NCBI GenBank assembly: GCA_937899415.1
Contig: CALBPI010000067.1
Location: 1 to 47,986 of the forward strand
Direction of reading: 5' to 3'
DNA from: an uncultured Gammaproteobacteria bacterium
GTDB lineage: Bacteria; Pseudomonadota; Gammaproteobacteria; Steroidobacterales; Woeseiaceae
DNA: 47,986 bases
Part shown: positions 17,240 to 36,796 of the stretch, in pieces
How positions within the stretch are numbered: position 1 is the first letter of the stretch
Layout of the letters: the number at the start of each line of letters is the position of its first letter
Program-made: the position numbers and the translations under genes
Notes under the pieces: model-generated
The model's input: the letters and a program-made list of their open reading frames with translations, nothing else
Told to the model about the DNA's origin: nothing
The model's database searches: none

Positions 17240-18301
17240 CTAGACACCCGAGAGAATCGGCATCTCCGCCTGTTTCGACTGCTGCGCGCGCGCGTCGAAC
17301 GCGGTCCAGACGCCGGCATCGCCGTGCCAGCTGCCGCCGGTCGCGCCCTTGGCGTATTCCGTGGCGCGCGTCTCGAAGAAATTCGCGTGCTCCACGCCGT
17401 TCAGAATCTCGGTGAGCCAGGGCAGCGGATGTTCTTTGATGCCATAGACTGTCGGCAGCGACAGTTGCCGCAGACGCCAGTCGGCGACATATCGGATGTA
17501 GCGCTTCACGGCTTCGGCGTCGAGTCCCTCAAGCGGCCCCATTTCAAACGCCAGGTCGATGAAGCTGTCCTCGAGCTTCACGACGGTTCTCGCACAATCG
17601 ACAATATCGTCTTTAACGGCTTGCGTGAGCGCCCCTGTTTCCTCGGCGAACGTATGAAACAGCTTCATGACGCCCTCGCAGTGGAGGCTTTCGTCGCGCA
17701 CAGACCAGGAGACGATTTGCCCCATACCGCGCATCTTGTTGTGCCGGGGAAAGTTCAGGAGGATCGCGAAACTGGCGAAGAGCTGCAGCCCTTCTGTAAA
17801 GCCACCGAACATGGCCAGTGTGCGCAGGATGTCACCTTCGTTGGCGACACCAAATTCCTGCATGAAGTCATGCTTGTCACGCATGGCCTCATAGTCCATG
17901 AACGCAGCGAACTCGGAGTCGGGCATGCCCAGCGTCTCGAGCAAGAGTGCATAGGCCACAATGTGAACGGTCTCCATGTTGGAGAACGCAGCCAGCATCA
18001 TCTTGATCTCTGTCGGTTTGAACACGAGTGCATAGCGCTCGAGGTAGTTGTCCTGCACCTCGACATCCGACTGGGTGAAGAACCGGAATACCTGCGTCAA
18101 CAGATTGCGTTCGGCGTCACTGAGGTGGTGCGCCCAGTCCTTGCAGTCTTCGCCCAGCGGCACTTCCTCGGGCATCCAGTGAATCTGCTGCTGCCGGCGC
18201 CAGAACTCGATGGCCCAGGGGTAGCGGAACGGTTTATAGGTCTTGCTGGGCAGCATGAGGCCGGGCTTGCCAATCAACTCCATCTGGTTTTGTTTGTTCA
18301 T
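17240..18301 (-). CDS. nrdB: Class I ribonucleotide reductase, beta subunit
   Basis: 353 residues starting at MNKQNQMELIG, with GGAG in front of the ATG at 18301. The open frame extends further upstream but without homology-like sequence. The diiron/tyrosyl-radical site is visible. METVHIVAY gives Glu-x2-His followed four residues later by Tyr, matching E115/H118/Y122 of the E. coli enzyme, and DESLHCEG supplies another Glu-x2-His. The protein generates the tyrosyl radical for reduction of ribonucleotides by the NrdA partner encoded 23 bases upstream. It belongs to the shorter (~350 residues) NrdB type. Expression should follow the riboswitch-controlled nrdA transcript. Confidence 0.95.
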   Translation of the reverse strand: MNKQNQMELIGKPGLMLPSKTYKPFRYPWAIEFWRRQQQIHWMPEEVPLGEDCKDWAHHLSDAERNLLTQVFRFFTQSDVEVQDNYLERYALVFKPTEIKMMLAAFSNMETVHIVAYALLLETLGMPDSEFAAFMDYEAMRDKHDFMQEFGVANEGDILRTLAMFGGFTEGLQLFASFAILLNFPRHNKMRGMGQIVSWSVRDESLHCEGVMKLFHTFAEETGALTQAVKDDIVDCARTVVKLEDSFIDLAFEMGPLEGLDAEAVKRYIRYVADWRLRQLSLPTVYGIKEHPLPWLTEILNGVEHANFFETRATEYAKGATGGSWHGDAGVWTAFDARAQQSKQAEMPILSGV

Positions 18302-18324
18302 CGTTCTTGTCTCCAGTGCGTAGC

Positions 18325-20172
18325 TTATTGGCAGGCCAGGCATTCGTCGTAGTCGTTGAGTCCGTCGCTGAGTTCGCGCTCGGGCCAGGCTTTCGTGTTG
18401 TCGCCCTCGACACCGGCGAAGCCGGCGCGCTGGACCGATTTGGACCGGCAGTAGTAGAGGCTCTTGATCCCCCGTTCCCAGGCAGACCAATGCAACATGA
18501 GCAGGTCCCACTTGTGGATATCACTGTTCAGGAACAGGTTGATCGACTGGCCCTGGCACACGCTGGGTGCACGGTCTGCCGCCAGGTCGACAACCCAGCG
18601 CTGGTCGATCTCAAAGGCGGTGCGAAAGACGGCCTTTTCTTCGTCACTGAGTGCGTCCAGATGCTGTACCGATCCGTCGTGCTGCAGAATCGTGGCCCAG
18701 GTCTCAGGCGTATTAAGGTCACGCGACTCGAGCAGTTGTTCCAGCGCCGGGTTCTTCACTGTGAACGATCCCGACAGCGTCTTGTGTGTGTAGATGTTCG
18801 CCGGGATCGGCTCGATGCAGGCGCTGACCCCACCGCAGATGATGCTGATGCTGGCGGTTGGGGCGATCGCCAGTTTGTGACTGAATCGCTCCGCGACGCC
18901 CGCTTCCCCGGCGTCTGGGCAGGGGCCACGTTCTTCGGCGAGACGCGCTGAGGCACGGTCTGCTTCATCGCGCAGGTGTCGGAACATGCGCAGGTTGAGG
19001 CTCTTGGCCATGGCGCCTTCGAAAGCGATGCCCTGGTCTTGCAGGTAGCTGTGAAAACCCATGGCGCCGAGGCCGACGGAGCGCTCGCGCATGGCTGAAT
19101 AGCGTGCCTGCGCCATACTGTCGGGTGCACGCTCGATGAAATCGTCGAGTACGTTATCGAGCATCCGCAAAACGTCCTCAACAAACCGGCTGTCCGTTCG
19201 CCACTCATCCCATCGTGTGAGATTCACGGACGACAGGCAGCACACTGCCGTTCGCGTCATGCCACTGTGATCACGACCTGTGGGCAGCAGGATCTCGCTG
19301 CACAGGTTTGACTGACGCACCTTCAGTCCCAGCTGCTTCTGGTGCTGGGGCACATCGCGGTTCGCGGTGTCGACAAACAGCAAGTAGGGCTCGCCCGTCT
19401 GCAGTCGCGTTTCGAGAATGCGCTGCCAGAGCTCACGCGCCGATACGGTGCGGATCACCGTGTCGTCGGCAGGACTGCGCAGCGCAAACGGCGCATCCTC
19501 ACGCACGGCTTCCATAAATGCATCGGTAATGGCGATGCCATGGTGAAGATTCAGGCTCTTGCGATTGAAGTCGCCAGAGGGTTTCCGGATCTCGACGAAC
19601 TCCTCGATCTCCGGGTGATGCACATCGATGTAGACCGCCGCCGAGCCGCGGCGCAGTGAGCCCTGAGAAATGGCGAGCGTCAGCGAATCCATGACCCGCA
19701 CAAACGGGATGATCCCGGACGTCTCGCCACTCTCACCGATGGGCTCGCCGATGGAGCGGACGTCACCCCAGTAGGTGCCGATACCGCCGCCGTTGGAGGC
19801 CAGCCAGACGTTTTCAGTCCAGGTGCCGACGATGCTGTCGAGACTGTCCTCGACGGCGTTGAGGAAACAGGAGATCGGCAAACCGCGGTCGGCGCCGCCG
19901 TTGCTCAGAACAGGCGTCGCTGGCATGAACCAGAGCATCGACATGTAGTCGTAGAGCCGCTGCGCGTGGTCGGCGTCATCAGCGTAGGCGTTAGCAACGC
20001 GCGCAAACAGGTCCTGGTAGGACTCTCCAGGCAGCAGGTAGCGGTCCCGCATGGTCGCCTTGCCGAACTCCGTCAGCAGGGCGTCCCGTGTGTGATCGAT
20101 GCGGATGCCGAAGCGCTCGGCTGTGCTTTTTGCGCGGACGGATTGCGTGGTTTCTGACGCCGGTGTAGCCAT
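18325..20172 (-). CDS. nrdA: Class I ribonucleotide reductase, alpha subunit without ATP-cone
   Basis: 615 residues, much shorter than E. coli NrdA (761). The N-terminus goes straight into the catalytic barrel without the usual ATP-cone, so the common dATP-inhibition site is absent. Active-site features are present: the redox Cys in LPISCFLNAV, the Asn-x-Cys-x-Glu triad in NLCSEILLP, the second redox Cys in TAVCCLSSVNL, the radical-transfer Tyr pair in SLYYCRSKS, and a C-terminal CLAC for thioredoxin/glutaredoxin recharging. The ATG at 20172 has AGGGG seven bases upstream. A cobalamin riboswitch lies in the leader and NrdR-box-like sites lie in the promoter. The reaction is reduction of ribonucleotides to deoxyribonucleotides. 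Confidence 0.95.
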   Translation of the reverse strand: MATPASETTQSVRAKSTAERFGIRIDHTRDALLTEFGKATMRDRYLLPGESYQDLFARVANAYADDADHAQRLYDYMSMLWFMPATPVLSNGGADRGLPISCFLNAVEDSLDSIVGTWTENVWLASNGGGIGTYWGDVRSIGEPIGESGETSGIIPFVRVMDSLTLAISQGSLRRGSAAVYIDVHHPEIEEFVEIRKPSGDFNRKSLNLHHGIAITDAFMEAVREDAPFALRSPADDTVIRTVSARELWQRILETRLQTGEPYLLFVDTANRDVPQHQKQLGLKVRQSNLCSEILLPTGRDHSGMTRTAVCCLSSVNLTRWDEWRTDSRFVEDVLRMLDNVLDDFIERAPDSMAQARYSAMRERSVGLGAMGFHSYLQDQGIAFEGAMAKSLNLRMFRHLRDEADRASARLAEERGPCPDAGEAGVAERFSHKLAIAPTASISIICGGVSACIEPIPANIYTHKTLSGSFTVKNPALEQLLESRDLNTPETWATILQHDGSVQHLDALSDEEKAVFRTAFEIDQRWVVDLAADRAPSVCQGQSINLFLNSDIHKWDLLMLHWSAWERGIKSLYYCRSKSVQRAGFAGVEGDNTKAWPERELSDGLNDYDECLACQ

Positions 20173-20177
20173 GTGTT

Positions 20178-20213
20178 GCCCCTGATGCAGTGCGAGTTAT
20201 TGGCACGAGGGGC
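20178..20213 (-). promoter_or_regulatory. Shine-Dalgarno-sequestering hairpin of nrdA
   Basis: On the minus strand GCCCCT (20213-20208) pairs with AGGGGC (20183-20178), which contains the nrdA ribosome-binding site. An inner 4-bp stem (20203-20206 with 20190-20193) strengthens it. This is a plausible expression platform for the upstream cobalamin riboswitch, acting at translation. Confidence 0.5.
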
Positions 20214-20293
20214 TGAGGCTTTGCGGACACGGTTCATGGGAGCGACCGGCAACAAACCCTGTCGGCACACCCCGTCCGATGAGTAGTTCTGTT

Positions 20294-20462
20294 GTGCCGG
20301 CAGGTCTCCTGACTCACGGCGTTTGCGCGATGTATCGCCTTCCCGGGTTTCCCCAGTGGCATTGAGACACATCGCCGCCGACTACAGTTGCGGGGGCAGT
20401 CCCGGACTTCTGGCAGGCGCCAGGCACCGGATTCCCTTTTCATCGCCTTGTGGGCGAACCGA
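20294..20462 (-). ncRNA. Cobalamin riboswitch upstream of nrdAB
   Basis: Reading the minus strand from ~20462, the conserved blocks of the B12 element occur in order: AAAAGGGAATCCGGTGC, the B12 box region ACTGCCCCCGCAACTGTA, CACTGGG, CCCGGGAAGG and GTGAGTCAGGAGACCTGCC. It lies about 120 bases before nrdA. By established knowledge this RNA binds adenosylcobalamin and usually lowers expression of the downstream gene. B12 control of a B12-independent ribonucleotide reductase is known from Streptomyces and predicted elsewhere; it suggests that the genome also has a B12-dependent class II enzyme. Confidence 0.95.
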
Positions 20463-20509
20463 CCCCTAGATGTTGTGTCATGCGACCGAGTAAAGTCAAC
20501 ATATTGTAG
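20463..20509. promoter_or_regulatory. Tandem NrdR-box-like sites upstream of nrdA
   Basis: Two 16-bp sites resemble the NrdR consensus acaCwAtATaTwGtgt. Site 1 (20494-20509, core CAACATATTG) matches 11 of 16 positions. Site 2 (20463-20478, right half TTGTGT) matches 12 of 16. Their centres are 31 bp apart, the spacing typical of NrdR box pairs, in which NrdR binds cooperatively. They lie immediately upstream of the nrdA riboswitch and overlap the proposed promoter. Confidence 0.55.
20470..20499 (-). promoter_or_regulatory. Candidate nrdAB promoter
   Basis: On the minus strand TTGACT (20499-20494) serves as a -35 and CAACAT (20475-20470) as a weak -10, with an 18-base spacer. Transcription would start near 20462, at the first base of the riboswitch. 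Both elements coincide with the NrdR-box-like sites, which would explain repression by NrdR. The -10 is poor, so this is tentative. Confidence 0.4.
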
Positions 20510-20578
20510 TGGTGTTGGCCACGACACCGATGTCCAAGCCGTGTGGACGTTTCTAACCCATTGGGGCACTATCAACGC

Positions 20579-20755
20579 GTGACGGTGCCAGCCCGGATTG
20601 GGCTGGCGAAAGGGAATGTGGTGCGGGCCGGGGCCCAATCCCACAACTGCCCCCGCAACTGTAAGCGGCGAGCAAACTCGACACGAACCACTGGGCGGTT
20701 AGCCCGGGAAGGAACGAGGGAGCAGCGACCCGCGAGTCAGGAAACCTGCCGTCAC
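20579..20755 (+). ncRNA. Cobalamin riboswitch upstream of the BLUF protein gene
   Basis: The closing stem GTGACGG (20579-20585) pairs with CCGTCAC (20749-20755). Between them lie the conserved blocks GAAAGGGAATGTGGTGC, the B12 box region ACTGCCCCCGCAACTGTAAG, CCACTGGG, CCCGGGAAGG and GCGAGTCAGGAAACCTGCC. It is a complete second B12 element, on the opposite strand to the nrdAB one and only 116 bases from it. It precedes a gene whose product itself carries a B12-binding-like domain. This arrangement predicts cobalamin control of that gene and its coupled neighbour. Confidence 0.95.
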
Positions 20756-20836
20756 AGCGACACGTTGACCGGGCGGGGTGCACCGGGGGACGCTGACGAT
20801 GCCACGACCTGCCAGGCCAGGCATCCTGCGGACCCA

Positions 20837-20866
20837 CTGCCCCCCACCCACGGTGGAGGGAGGCAG
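20837..20866 (+). promoter_or_regulatory. Anti-Shine-Dalgarno hairpin before the BLUF gene
   Basis: The C-rich run at 20837-20848 folds onto GGTGGAGGGAGGCAG at 20852-20866 around a 3-base loop (849-851), with single-base bulges. The G-rich arm is the ribosome-binding site of the ATG at 20869. This is a convincing translational expression platform for the plus-strand cobalamin riboswitch. Confidence 0.6.
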
Positions 20867-20868
20867 AT

Positions 20869-21987
20869 ATGACACCGATTTCAGAGACTCAGGCGCACCT
20901 TGGGCGGGTGTTCCGGCTCAGTTATTCGAGTCGCGCGACGCGCCCGATACACCGCAGTGCGGCGACTCAGCTCGCTAACGACGCCGCGGACAACAACGGC
21001 CGGGAGGGTGTCTCCGGGGTCCTGTTTAGCGATCACGGCCTGTTCCTGCAGTGGCTTGAGGGCCCGGCACCCGAGGTGTGCTCCGTGATGTCCCGCATTA
21101 CTGCCGACCCGCGCCACACCGATGTCACCCTGCACAGTGCGGGCTGGATTTCGGACCGCCGCTATTCCGATTGGGCGATGCAGCTCGCCGGACAACCGTT
21201 ACCGGGAACCGCGCCCGGGGGGCGTCTTCAGGATCGGTCGAAAGCGCCCTGCGACACCTTGCAGGCGCTGGCTGCATTCGACGCGATGGAACGGGACTAC
21301 TACCGAGAGCGCAATCGGATCGGCGGCAGTCCGTCGCTGCAGGAGTTTGCGCACGAGCTCATTCACCGCAGCCCGAGCGCGTCGCCACACCTACCAGAAG
21401 CGGCCCGGACGCATTTGCACGCGCGTGCACAGTTCGTCGATGACGTGTGCAGTGAGTTTGTGTCGGGCTGGCGCGAGGATCACTGGACCTCGATCGAGGT
21501 CGCGCTTGGCATGGCACACCTCAATCTCATCTGGCAGCGGTCGGGCCGCGTGCTGCAGCCCTCGCAGTCGCGCCAATGTGTTGCGGTCGTTGTGCCGCCC
21601 AACAGCTCTGAGTGCCTCGGCGCGATCGTAAAGGCCGACTTGCTGCGTGACGCCGGCATTGCCGTGCGTATGATCAGTGCGCCAAGCGTTGACACCACAA
21701 TTGGCGCGCTTTACGAGCAGGAGCTCGACGCCATCATCGTTGCGGGGTCCCGGCTGGGGTGGAGTGAAGACCAAAAGCGCGCCAAGGCGCTGGCATCCCG
21801 CATCCGCGAGCGCATCCGGGCGGTCCCGACCTATGTCGGCGGTCATAAGGCGGGGAGCCTGGACGGCTGGCCCGAGCGCATTGCGCTTCTGCGCGACGAT
21901 GCAGCGGCGATGCGCGCCACCGATGTCGATTGGCTGGCGCTTTCCCAGCTGGCCACAGGCACAAGCGGTCACCTGCTTAAGCGTTGA
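20869..21987 (+). CDS. BLUF blue-light receptor with C-terminal B12/SCHIC-like domain (AppA-like)
   Basis: 372 residues. Residues ~12-108 form a BLUF flavin domain with all photocycle residues: Tyr19, Asn43, Gln61, Trp102 and Met104. Each is exactly two positions before the AppA equivalents (Y21, N45, Q63, W104, M106). A helical segment (~140-230, His217 in MAHLNL) precedes a Rossmann-like B12-binding fold (~238-360: VAVVVPPNSSECLGA ... LDAIIVAGSRLG). At the Asp-x-His-x-x-Gly cobalamin signature the sequence has Ser-x-Glu-x-x-Gly (246-251), so the usual lower-ligand His is missing, as in the heme- or cobalamin-binding SCHIC domains of AppA/PpaA/AerR. AppA's Cys-rich tail is absent. A strong ribosome-binding site is present, the gene lies behind a cobalamin riboswitch, and it is coupled to the next gene by a TTGA overlap. 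Confidence 0.85.
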   Translation: MTPISETQAHLGRVFRLSYSSRATRPIHRSAATQLANDAADNNGREGVSGVLFSDHGLFLQWLEGPAPEVCSVMSRITADPRHTDVTLHSAGWISDRRYSDWAMQLAGQPLPGTAPGGRLQDRSKAPCDTLQALAAFDAMERDYYRERNRIGGSPSLQEFAHELIHRSPSASPHLPEAARTHLHARAQFVDDVCSEFVSGWREDHWTSIEVALGMAHLNLIWQRSGRVLQPSQSRQCVAVVVPPNSSECLGAIVKADLLRDAGIAVRMISAPSVDTTIGALYEQELDAIIVAGSRLGWSEDQKRAKALASRIRERIRAVPTYVGGHKAGSLDGWPERIALLRDDAAAMRATDVDWLALSQLATGTSGHLLKR

Positions 21988-22967
21988 TCCGAATCGGGCT
22001 CCTGGGCGCCTCCCGAATCGCGGTTGGCGCCGTCATCCGGCCGGCCGCAGCCTTCGACCAGTTGCAGGTGCAGGCGATCGCCGCACGCTCGCCAGTCCGC
22101 GCGCGCCAGTACGCCGAAACGCACAGCATTCCGAAAACGCATGCGGACTACGCAGCGCTGGTGACGTGCCCTGACGTCGACCTTGTCTACAACGCCTTGC
22201 CGCCCAGTGAGCACAAACACTGGACTATCGCCGCGTTGCGAGCCGGTAAGCACGTGCTCTGCGAGAAGCCCTTCGCGCTGTCGGCGGAAGAGGCCGGGGC
22301 AATGGTCGGCGCTGCGCGTGACACGGGCAACGTGCTCATCGAGGCCTTCCACTACTGTTTCCATCCGCTCTTTCTCCGTGTCCTGGAGCTGACTAAGTCA
22401 GACGCGATCGGCACGGTGCGGCGCGTGGATGGGCACTTCAATACCGCGATTGCATTTGAGCCCTCTGAGCTTCGCTACGTGCGGGAACTGGGCGGTGGCG
22501 CATTGATGGACCTGGGTTGTTATCCGCTGCACTGGGTGCGACAGGTGGTCGGTGAAGCGCCCGATGTGGTGTCCGCCGTCGGTGAGTGGCACGAGGCGGG
22601 CGTCGATGTTGCGATGACGGCGAAACTGGCTTTCCCAGGCGGCGCTATGGCGCACGTGAAGTGTTCGATGGCCGGCGTGTCGTCCGGTCCGCTCGACAAC
22701 ACGCTGCAAGTCACAGGCGACCTGGGCACGTTGACGGTGAACAACCTGATCGCGCCGCACCTGGGGCACGAGCTGCATCTGGATACCGGCGAGGGTATTG
22801 TCACCGAGACGCTCAGCACGCGGCCGACCTATCACTACCAGCTGCAACACGTGATCGATGTGATCGAAGGCAGTGCGCCGCAGGTAACGGGCGGTGATGA
22901 TGCGATTAACACGATGCACCTCATCAACGCGGTCTACCGCAAGGCGCTGGGTCAGGACGCTTCGTAA
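21984..22967 (+). CDS. Gfo/Idh/MocA-family NAD(P)-dependent oxidoreductase
   Basis: 327 residues. The N-terminal dinucleotide-binding motif (IRIGLLGASRIA) and the Glu-Lys-Pro signature (GKHVLCEKPFAL) at ~90 define the Gfo/Idh/MocA family, whose members oxidise or reduce sugars, inositols, biliverdin and related compounds. GGGALMDLGCYPLHW (~172-186) is the typical substrate-side segment with the conserved Asp and His region. The substrate is not identifiable. The start is TTG inside a TTGA overlap with the BLUF gene stop, so translation is coupled and expression should depend on the same cobalamin riboswitch. The 3' end overlaps the convergent diguanylate cyclase gene by 16 bases. Confidence 0.85.
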   Translation: MIRIGLLGASRIAVGAVIRPAAAFDQLQVQAIAARSPVRARQYAETHSIPKTHADYAALVTCPDVDLVYNALPPSEHKHWTIAALRAGKHVLCEKPFALSAEEAGAMVGAARDTGNVLIEAFHYCFHPLFLRVLELTKSDAIGTVRRVDGHFNTAIAFEPSELRYVRELGGGALMDLGCYPLHWVRQVVGEAPDVVSAVGEWHEAGVDVAMTAKLAFPGGAMAHVKCSMAGVSSGPLDNTLQVTGDLGTLTVNNLIAPHLGHELHLDTGEGIVTETLSTRPTYHYQLQHVIDVIEGSAPQVTGGDDAINTMHLINAVYRKALGQDAS

Positions 22968-34920: not shown

Positions 34921-35654
34921 TTGGCACCGGCCAGCAGGAAGGCGTGGTCGGACTTGAGCAGGAACAGGCTCGACCCGAGCTCGCGCCAGCGCGGCAGCTC
35001 CGACAGGTTGGGCGTGAACATGCCGACAGTCATGCCCGCATCACGGCACTGGCTGCAGATGGTCTCTACGGCTTCGATAACGGCGGCATCGTCGGGCGCG
35101 CGCTGCATGGCAACTGCTAGGTCGGCGCGGCCGACGAACAGAGCGTCAACGCCTTCCACGCGGGCAATCTCGGGTACTTGATCGAGCGCGGCCAGGTCTT
35201 CAATTTGCACAACCACGCTCGTGTGTTTGGCGCTCGCCTCGAGATGCGCGGCCATACCCAGCGTGCCGTAGCCTGCCGCACGCGGTGAGCCCGCAAACCC
35301 CCGACCGCCATCGCCAAAATGGCTGGCGCGCACGATGCGCTCGGCCTGGGCGACACTCGTGACGTGTGGCACGAGAATGCCGCTCGCGCCGCTGTCGAGC
35401 GCATTGCGAATCTCGCGCGCTGAATCGTCGGCGGTGCGGACCAGGCTCGGCATGTCGGCCGCGCGACAGGCCGCGAGACACAGGTCGGTGTCACTGCGAC
35501 CAAACGGCGCGTGTTCGCTGTCGATGGTCACGACGTCGAGCGAGGACAAGCCGAGCACCTCGGCCACGACGGGTGAGGGCGTTTTCATGAAGGTGCCCAT
35601 GATCGGCGCACCCTTTGTGAGCCGATCCCGGAAGGACACTATACGGCTGCTCAT
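34896..35654 (-). CDS. HpcH/HpaI-family aldolase
   Basis: 252 residues, typical for the class II HpcH/HpaI aldolases. TIDSEHAPF carries the conserved Glu-His pair, GRGFAGSPRAAGYG the loop that holds the substrate carboxylate, and VQIED with GRADLAV the divalent metal ligands Glu and Asp. Such enzymes cleave 4-hydroxy-2-oxo acids to pyruvate and an aldehyde, often the last step of a sugar-acid or aromatic pathway. It is the last gene of lacI - hydrolase - MetE-like - aldolase, overlapping the MetE-like gene by 4 bases (ATGA). It supports a pathway ending in pyruvate; the substrate is unknown. Confidence 0.9.
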   Translation of the reverse strand: MSSRIVSFRDRLTKGAPIMGTFMKTPSPVVAEVLGLSSLDVVTIDSEHAPFGRSDTDLCLAACRAADMPSLVRTADDSAREIRNALDSGASGILVPHVTSVAQAERIVRASHFGDGGRGFAGSPRAAGYGTLGMAAHLEASAKHTSVVVQIEDLAALDQVPEIARVEGVDALFVGRADLAVAMQRAPDDAAVIEAVETICSQCRDAGMTVGMFTPNLSELPRWRELGSSLFLLKSDHAFLLAGANQLSDAMR

Positions 35655-36796
35655 GCGCTTCCCCAGAGTTGATCGCTGGCGCGTGCTGCGCCTTCAGCCA
35701 TGCTGGCGAGCTTGGCATAGACGATGTTCTCGTCGACGGCGCCGAAGCCCGCAAAGGTCGAGAAGCCACAGTCCGTGCCTGCCATGACCCGGTCGCGACC
35801 CACGATACCGGCGTAACGGCAGATCCGCTCCGCAACGAGCTTGGGGTGTTCGACGAAGTTCGTGGTCGAGTCGAGCACGCCCGGGATCAGGACGAGGTCC
35901 TCGGGCAGGTCCGTGTTGGCGAAGACCTCCCACTCGTGCGCGTGGCGCGGGTTCGACGACTCGAACAGCAGCGCGCCGATATGCGCCTTGAGCGCGATTG
36001 GCAACACGAGCTCCATGGGCGCATCGTGGTGGTGCGGGCCCTCGTAATTGCCCCAACAGACATGCAGGCGCACGCGGTCGCGGGGGATCCCCTCGAGCGC
36101 CATGTTGAGCGCTTCCACGTGCAGCGTCGCCTGGGCTATGTAGTCCGAATCCGGTTTGCCCTTGAACATCATGTGCCGGCCCAGCCCCAGGTCGGGTGAA
36201 TCGAGCTGCAGCACAAGGCCGGCGTCGACGATGGCTTGGTACTCGGCCTTCATCGCCTCAGCCAGCGCCATGAGATAGTCCTCGTGCGTGGCGTAGTGCT
36301 GATTGGGCTGGAACAGCGCGATGACGCCCGGGGAAGCGGCGTTCATGAAGCCTTCGACGGGTGGTGCGGCGGTCATTGCCGCCCGCATGTTGTCGATATC
36401 GTCAGACGCCGGTTGCATGTCTTTGACGCGAATGGCTCCCACGCAACACGGCCGGCGGTAGGTGGGCGTTCCCCCCGAATCAGCGAGGCGCTTGAGGAAA
36501 CTCGGGTAGTCCTCAAGGTCGCTGGGTGGCTCGCGCTCGCTGTCGCCGTCAAAGCCCGTGATGCGATCCTTGATGTAAGTAGCGTAGCTGATCTTGCTCA
36601 TTTCGCCGTCGCTGACGACGTCAACGCCGCTATCGATCTGGCGTGCGACGACCGCGGCCACGGCCTCACGGATGATGCCGCCGGCGTCATCTCGCGGTTC
36701 GCCACGCTCGGCTGCAAACACCACATCGGTGACGGCCTGCGATCGGGGCAGGCTGCCCACGTGCGTGGTGAGGATGCGGTCCTGGCTCGTTTTCAT
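35651..36796 (-). CDS. MetE C-terminal-like / epoxyalkane:CoM transferase-like zinc protein
   Basis: 381 residues, half the size of full MetE and close to epoxyalkane:coenzyme M transferase (~377). It has the HVGSLPR start, LQLDSPDL, and the zinc ligands of the family: His and Cys in RLHVCWGNYEGP and Cys in GTDCGFSTFAG. The MetE N-terminal domain is absent, so methionine synthesis with folate is unlikely. Zinc-thiolate transfer of an alkyl group, or C-S bond breakage, is the family-based expectation; this is inference. It overlaps both neighbours by 4 bases (ATGA) in the lacI operon. Confidence 0.85.
   Translation of the reverse strand: MKTSQDRILTTHVGSLPRSQAVTDVVFAAERGEPRDDAGGIIREAVAAVVARQIDSGVDVVSDGEMSKISYATYIKDRITGFDGDSEREPPSDLEDYPSFLKRLADSGGTPTYRRPCCVGAIRVKDMQPASDDIDNMRAAMTAAPPVEGFMNAASPGVIALFQPNQHYATHEDYLMALAEAMKAEYQAIVDAGLVLQLDSPDLGLGRHMMFKGKPDSDYIAQATLHVEALNMALEGIPRDRVRLHVCWGNYEGPHHHDAPMELVLPIALKAHIGALLFESSNPRHAHEWEVFANTDLPEDLVLIPGVLDSTTNFVEHPKLVAERICRYAGIVGRDRVMAGTDCGFSTFAGFGAVDENIVYAKLASMAEGAARASDQLWGSA

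Follow-up and report, generated by a model that had tools for sequence, protein, structure and literature searches.

We found a cobalamin riboswitch in the leader of a gene for a BLUF-SCHIC protein of the AppA type in the DNA analysed here, a stretch of 47,986 nucleotides (the window) from an uncultured gammaproteobacterium of the family Woeseiaceae. The pairing is real and recurrent, being found in several lineages, and our searches of open-licence papers gave no description of it. What is new is the combination of a known kind of photoreceptor with a known kind of riboswitch, which makes cross-talk between B12 and light directly testable. The features of the window referred to below are:

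17240..18511, minus strand: nrdB, ribonucleotide reductase small chain, ORF as listed (PF00268, 242 bits on 17243-18424)
18325..20172, minus strand: nrdA, ribonucleotide reductase large chain (PF02867, 396 bits)
20282..20478, minus strand: second cobalamin riboswitch, before nrdA (cmscan, 118.7 bits)
20567..20767, plus strand: cobalamin riboswitch aptamer (RF00174) of the BLUF-SCHIC gene (cmscan)
20770..20785, plus strand: CGGGCGGGGTGCACCG element directly 3' of the aptamer (leaders compared by eye)
20837..20866, plus strand: hairpin able to pair the Shine-Dalgarno region (GGAGGGAGG, 20855-20863) (sequence, fold, shuffles)
20869..21987, plus strand: BLUF-SCHIC (AppA-type) protein, 372 aa, with BLUF at 15-105 and the SCHIC fold at about 150-344 (ORF, Pfam, fold)
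21984..22967, plus strand: Gfo/Idh/MocA-family oxidoreductase whose reading frame (TTG start) shares its first 4 bases with the end of the BLUF gene

A BLUF-SCHIC protein of the AppA type

The N-terminal part of the protein matched the Pfam BLUF family PF04940 at residues 15-105 with 82.2 bits against a cut-off of 25. Residues 18-107 align with 20-109 of AppA (2iyg), an offset of 2, and Y19, N43, Q61, W102 and M104, which we take to be the flavin-pocket residues, are all present. The BLUF residue set and its offset from AppA, first claimed in a sequence-only reading of this DNA, are thus borne out.

For the C-terminal half, phmmer returned the SCHIC domain of AppA (4heh, 7.7e-5) and AerR (7te2, 8.3e-5). 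The Pfam B12-binding family PF02310 scored 13.7 bits on the protein, below its cut-off of 32.1. PF21966 (AppA_SCHIC) gave no match to it at E 0.1 and was weakly matched by three of six clade members (best 0.011); NCBIfam gave no match to the window protein. A profile of six clade members found AppA (4hh0) as its best match, aligned in a single stretch, 13-328, with E 7.9e-37.

We then compared folds. An AlphaFold model made from 30 aligned rows had a mean pLDDT of 79.7 and a pTM of 0.55, with pLDDT below 50 in segments 111-131 and 144-152 and in the tail. Foldseek ranked full-length AppA (4hh1) first for this model (E 2.7e-19). By VIA-align, the SCHIC half matched the AppA SCHIC domain (4heh) with Z 21.5 over 190 residues at an rmsd of 2.5, and AppA in the AppA-PpsR2 complex (4hh3) with Z 21.4; the other folds were photocobilin (8j2x, Z 15.2), AerR (7te2, Z 14.7) and CarH (5c8d, Z 13.5). 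As modelled, the protein is of the AppA type and nearer to the SCHIC domain of AppA than to the cobalamin-binding AerR. BLASTP of the window protein against the AerR of the same genome gave nothing significant; the two are related through profile and fold. The proposal of an AppA-type BLUF protein with a cobalamin riboswitch in its leader therefore agrees with the 4hh0 and 4heh matches and with RF00174. The C-terminal domain of B12-binding type that had been proposed finds support in the SCHIC and AerR matches by phmmer and fold, but not in PF02310. The same split runs through the HMM search against BLUF and B12-binding/SCHIC profiles suggested as a check, which BLUF passed and in which PF02310 fell short and PF21966 gave no match.

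Known tetrapyrrole ligands are missing from the SCHIC domain

The C-terminal half carries S246-S-E248-C-L-G, the Ser-x-Glu-x-x-Gly motif noticed earlier. In a passage of PMC9144470, the lower cobalt ligand of AerR is His145 and the heme ligand of AppA, shifted by two residues, is His284; the AppA loop V329-T337 is described there as likely to hinder cobalamin. Our alignments place Glu248 at the AerR His145 position and Ser246 at the AppA His284 position. These assignments use our own readings of the alignments, in which the histidine of PGEQH is His145, in agreement with the two-residue shift given in PMC9144470, and VAPSLLEGT is the named AppA loop. The window loop, V291-S299, equals that of AppA in length. 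Glu248, Lys255 and Asp257 did not vary among six aligned clade members, and a seventh (G919) also has Glu at the cobalt-ligand position.

The protein thus lacks the heme-ligand histidine that would place it among heme sensors and the cobalt-ligand histidine that would place it with AerR/PpaA. Neither of the known ligand histidines is present and the loop has the AppA length, so the C-terminal domain probably does not sense cobalamin or heme via these ligands; judging by its residues, the earlier suggestion that it might read one of them is unlikely. The clade would then have retained a SCHIC fold from which the known tetrapyrrole ligands are gone.

The AerR of the same genome has PGEQH, with the cobalt-ligand histidine kept, and scores 54.7 bits with PF02310. 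An AerR-like match was present in 13/13 genomes. The best such match kept the histidine in all 12 genomes inspected, two of them by eye; the 13th genome, G399, lies outside this count, and the best match in G398 is not the one nearest pufLM.

The cobalamin riboswitch and the leader

Cmscan matched RF00174 at 20567-20767 on the plus strand with E 1.2e-29 and 120 bits (gathering score 31.5). The match covers the full model (1-189), confirming the complete B12 riboswitch reported before the BLUF gene. Comparing ten riboswitched BLUF leaders by eye, we saw the CGGGCGGGGTGCACCG-type element (CGG.CGGGGTG..CCG) directly 3' of the aptamer in eight of them, and the nrdA leader has it too; the leaders of L094 and L087 deviate from this form. 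The element is perhaps the P13/L13 kissing-loop arm, as we infer; inspection by eye did not resolve L5-L13 kissing-loop covariation. The distance from the aptamer end to the start codon, which we chose ourselves in each leader, was 98-113 bases in the ten leaders. The common element and the similar spacing suggest a shared expression platform.

The hairpin reported to bury the ribosome-binding site is present, but its pairing is not above chance. Shine-Dalgarno pairing in the window leader was 0.70, against a mean of 0.73 in dinucleotide shuffles, and we rejected the hairpin as support for an OFF switch. Among ten leaders tested in this way, only that of L085 stood out (0.02 of shuffles equally high). 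A scan of 20150-20950 found no terminator or sigma-70 promoter pattern. Since Shine-Dalgarno burial does not exceed that of shuffles and the scan gave neither pattern, the direction of the switch is something we infer, and it is likely OFF. Most riboswitches of the cobalamin class lower expression when cobalamin is plentiful. The relevant part of PMC9600662 describes repression of a cobalamin-independent isozyme by a cobalamin riboswitch, a strategy tested for metE and metH, and PMC10653944 describes one activating natural corrinoid riboswitch.

The pairing recurs in proteobacteria

A survey of riboswitch-BLUF pairs in other genomes had been proposed, and cmscan yielded ten loci beyond the window. 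Altogether the pairing stands at 11 loci in 10 taxa of alpha-, beta- and gammaproteobacteria, one of them with a broken frame, and the loci are spread widely through the tree of the family. Outside the window, RF00174 lies directly upstream of the BLUF gene at:

L084, Rhodovulum euryhalinum: 125.2 bits
L085, R. adriaticum: 123.1 bits
L087, Shimia MAG, BLUF frame broken: 85.5 bits
L094, Rhodovibrionaceae MAG: 116.5 bits
L103, gammaproteobacterial MAG: 123.4 bits
L119, Burkholderiales MAG: 118.6 bits
L120, Aquibium carbonis: 121.8 bits
L163 and L165, R. sulfidophilum plasmids (two strains): 130.1 and 128.4 bits
L216, genome G919 (Rhodovulum family): 102.5 bits

Cmscan did not find RF00174 at L083 (Alkalicaulis) or L164 (Cereibacter azotoformans), both of the window's clade, nor up to E 0.1 at the gene of AppA itself (L217, G853), nor at G424, G536 and G492 or the G040 and G044 relatives. 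The leader of L129 is too near a contig edge to be judged.

A contig scan with the window protein alone as query found no relatives; a three-row alignment as query found 311, and we carried on with the 80 best. Among these 80, a B12-box pattern occurred at 6/41 long and 0/35 short BLUF loci (Fisher p 0.028, a guide only, as related sequences are not independent), long meaning at least 270 residues beyond the QWLEG motif. Set aside from the 80 were L087 (broken frame, riboswitch present), L098 (truncated) and L129 and L152 (near a contig end); the 41/35 count does not include L163, L165, L216 or the window. The long BLUF family is rare, with 5/394 genomes of the Rhodovulum family at E 1e-25.

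Two loci showed individual peculiarities. The broken BLUF frame of the Shimia MAG (L087, 5669-6818) is a pseudogene or an assembly error, and upstream on the same strand are a metH-looking ORF and another RF00174. In the C. azotoformans protein (L164, 3992-5095) the BLUF Tyr is replaced by Phe (VAFASR), a change that may have altered or abolished the photocycle.

Phylogenetic analysis joined the window protein with those of Alkalicaulis, Rhodovulum and C. azotoformans in one clade with support 100/99, all with Glu; G919 joins them in a further tree. Rhodosalinus (L086), which has the histidine and no riboswitch, is sister to the clade in the trees. The placement of G919 and L086 is unsure owing to long branches. 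On the trait tree, built without AerR, the near-copy L165, L087 and L098 and with L129 outside the trait counts, the riboswitch label required seven changes, six of them forced by well-supported branches, and the no-His label two. We considered riboswitch and loss of the cobalt-ligand histidine going together as a general rule and rejected it: four riboswitched relatives (L094, L103, L119 and L120) keep the histidine, and an independent-pairs test gave no link. Nor did the riboswitch prove to be a mark of B12 auxotrophs. CbiC was present in 4/9 riboswitched genomes (G397, G398, G399 and G919; not found in G000, G400, G401, G402 and G403) and in 11/41 overall, several of the genomes being draft MAGs.

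A phototroph that probably depends on outside B12

The genome of the window (G000, 3.94 Mb, 98.4% complete) belongs to a family of Woeseiaceae MAGs. Its contig C84 carries the two reaction-centre genes pufLM, with aerR and a ppsR-like gene adjoining each other; the product of the latter has PAS and Fis-type HTH domains. Further photosynthesis genes on C84, among them bch-type genes and an acsF-looking gene, were seen by eye. The BLUF gene, the source of the single BLUF protein in G000, and the photosynthesis cluster are on separate contigs. The sequence-only reading had placed the protein in a non-photosynthetic setting; that claim falls, since pufLM is present on another contig together with a ppsR-like gene and an aerR of the B12 type. 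The phototrophy test covered 11 genomes with long BLUF proteins, all 11 of which have the reaction-centre family (pufLM), plus G040 and G044, both positive; the rest, including Myxococcota, lie outside it. A passage of PMC2654016 reports C. litoralis to be without an appA-like gene.

G000 has three copies of RF00174, before nrdAB, before the BLUF-SCHIC gene and before a btuB-looking TonB-dependent receptor. The last, on contig C20 (L038, 1501-1734), was recognised as BtuB-like by eye. CbiC/CobH was not found in this 98.4%-complete genome, so G000 probably takes B12 from outside. According to a table in PMC3679898, four strains of OM60/NOR5, which are aerobic phototrophs, need outside B12.

Neighbouring genes

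The second RF00174 (20478-20282, minus strand), overlooked in the earlier reading, lies back to back with the first, the two divergent aptamers being 88 bases apart. It precedes nrdA and nrdB, the true start of the latter probably being later than that of the listed ORF, as the Pfam match begins further in. The oxidoreductase whose start overlaps the BLUF stop is possibly the second gene of the BLUF transcript, and to judge from the overlap the two may be coupled. Elsewhere in the window, an ORF at 35651-36796 (minus strand) resembles, by eye, a cobalamin-independent methionine synthase (MetE C-terminal).

Enzymes encoded by aceB-aceA, prpC and nrdAB are able to replace B12-dependent routes. 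The BLUF copies of R. sulfidophilum and Cereibacter lie downstream of aceB-aceA, the Cereibacter copy also near prpC, and together with nrdAB in the window these neighbours are in keeping with a B12-shortage programme. Inspected by eye, the neighbours of the other BLUF copies showed no pattern of B12-free routes. The copies of R. sulfidophilum (L163) and C. azotoformans (L164) are plasmid-borne, and L084 and L085 share, by eye, a similar stretch directly downstream of the BLUF gene. From these plasmid copies and this likeness, the BLUF-SCHIC gene may be mobile.

Proposed role and alternatives

We give even chances to the following explanation: the protein is an AppA-type PpsR antirepressor that is made at B12 shortage and shifts control from the B12-based AerR to a flavin-based partner. 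It would act on PpsR as the repressor of photosynthesis, sensing blue light through flavin in its N-terminal BLUF domain and binding PpsR through a C-terminal SCHIC module that would no longer hold cobalamin or heme by the known ligands. With plentiful cobalamin the riboswitch would lower expression, and with cobalamin short the protein would be made; the divergent nrdAB riboswitch presumably has the same OFF direction. AerR in the same cell, its cobalt-ligand histidine kept, would be the PpsR partner with a B12 chromophore. At B12 shortage it would be without chromophore while the flavin-based partner rises. PpsR is likely the output, given the AppA-type fold, pufLM in 11/11 genomes and the AerR-like match in 13/13. 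Against this explanation stand the riboswitched relatives with the histidine and the negative independent-pairs test, the clade members without RF00174, the Shine-Dalgarno pairing no higher than in shuffles, the known activating corrinoid riboswitch, the opposite actions of AerR and AppA in R. sphaeroides, a CbiC distribution that does not follow the riboswitch, the separate contigs and the absence of an AppA_SCHIC match.

By analogy with metE replacing metH, a B12-sensing RNA in purple bacteria might swap the PpsR partner, from B12-loaded AerR at plentiful cobalamin to a flavin-based, cobalamin-blind AppA-type protein at shortage. We advance this hand-over tentatively, and its further part, that the link between riboswitch and photoreceptor was gained or lost several times across proteobacteria, is equally tentative. 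A B12-free stand-in is no family-wide rule, since four riboswitched relatives retain the histidine. 'Stand-in' may also be the wrong word: a passage of PMC6199135 ascribes opposite actions in R. sphaeroides to AerR and AppA, and the hand-over may therefore be a sign switch rather than a substitution.

An alternative that we consider rather unlikely is a general coupling of B12 status to photosystem control: the riboswitch would tune how much AppA-type regulator is made because cobalamin, heme and bacteriochlorophyll share one tetrapyrrole pathway; ligand binding by the SCHIC domain would then vary and be irrelevant to the link. This accommodates riboswitches found with and without the cobalt-ligand histidine, the at least six tree changes and the phototrophy, by pufLM, of the genomes tested, and a section of PMC5282855 surveys how cobalamin and heme act on bacteriochlorophyll genes via AerR-CrtJ and PpsR. 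With no CbiC/CobH found in G000, however, outside B12 would probably not report the cell's own tetrapyrrole flux.

It is improbable that the BLUF-SCHIC protein itself reads cobalamin or heme, with the riboswitch as feedback on a B12-binding protein. The B12-binding-type fold and the riboswitched relatives with an intact histidine would suit such feedback, but the window's clade is without both ligand histidines, Glu248 is fixed in 6/6 aligned members and PF02310 reached only 13.7 bits. We give similarly little credit to a regulator whose target is not PpsR but possibly lies within its own operon or close by. The gene does sit on another contig than the photosynthesis genes, and the oxidoreductase start overlaps its stop, yet the architecture and fold are of the AppA type, all 11 genomes tested have pufLM, and the gene neighbours examined vary from genome to genome. 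Finally, an accident of location, the riboswitch being a copy of the nrdA leader with no role for the BLUF gene, would fit two divergent riboswitches 88 bases apart with a similar 3' element but is very improbable, as the pairing occurs at ten other loci, none with an opposite-strand RF00174 by cmscan (some stretches being short).

If the antirepressor explanation is true, an RNA and a flavin photoreceptor would form a second B12 route to photosystem genes beside AerR, and B12 supply could set the light response of phototrophs that need it from outside. The same arrangement is found in named, cultured Rhodovulum.

Comparison with known systems

Among the open-licence papers listed by our searches we found no report joining a cobalamin riboswitch with a BLUF protein; one may exist elsewhere. 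Two papers that combine BLUF with cobalamin or B12 riboswitches (PMC9545926 and PMC4448311) were discarded because they concern genes named bluF. In the passages concerned, PMC9614035, PMC8584932 and PMC3565283 mention BLUF, riboswitch and PpsR without linking them.

The closest known system is AppA of Rhodobacter (Cereibacter) sphaeroides, which the window protein resembles in BLUF-SCHIC order, fold (Z 21.5), loop length and BLUF residues. The window protein differs in having neither the heme-position histidine nor the Cys-rich tail and in the cobalamin riboswitch of its leader, and identity in structural alignments is 20-24%. The R. sulfidophilum plasmid protein shares the clade (100/99), Glu for His and a riboswitched leader, whereas its gene sits on a plasmid after aceB-aceA. 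Masuda and colleagues (PMC3738892) called it an AppA ortholog, with no mention of a riboswitch.

The AerR/PpaA photoreceptors, partners of PpsR/CrtJ, share the B12-binding-type fold of the C-terminal half. Unlike the window protein, AerR keeps the cobalt-ligand histidine and has no BLUF domain, and its fold matches with Z 14.7 only. AerR-CrtJ is an established path by which B12 controls photosystem genes, as set out in parts of PMC5282855 and PMC9144470. A loss of the cobalamin-binding motif has a parallel in HP1 of Rhodospirillum rubrum, which a section of PMC10734443 describes as AerR-like and still controlling pigment; HP1 is there the smallest of its family and described without a BLUF domain. 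The riboswitch itself is of the same RNA family as those of the B12-independent isozyme genes metE and nrdAB, the latter being its divergent neighbour in the window, but the gene it controls here encodes a light-sensing regulator rather than an enzyme or transporter.
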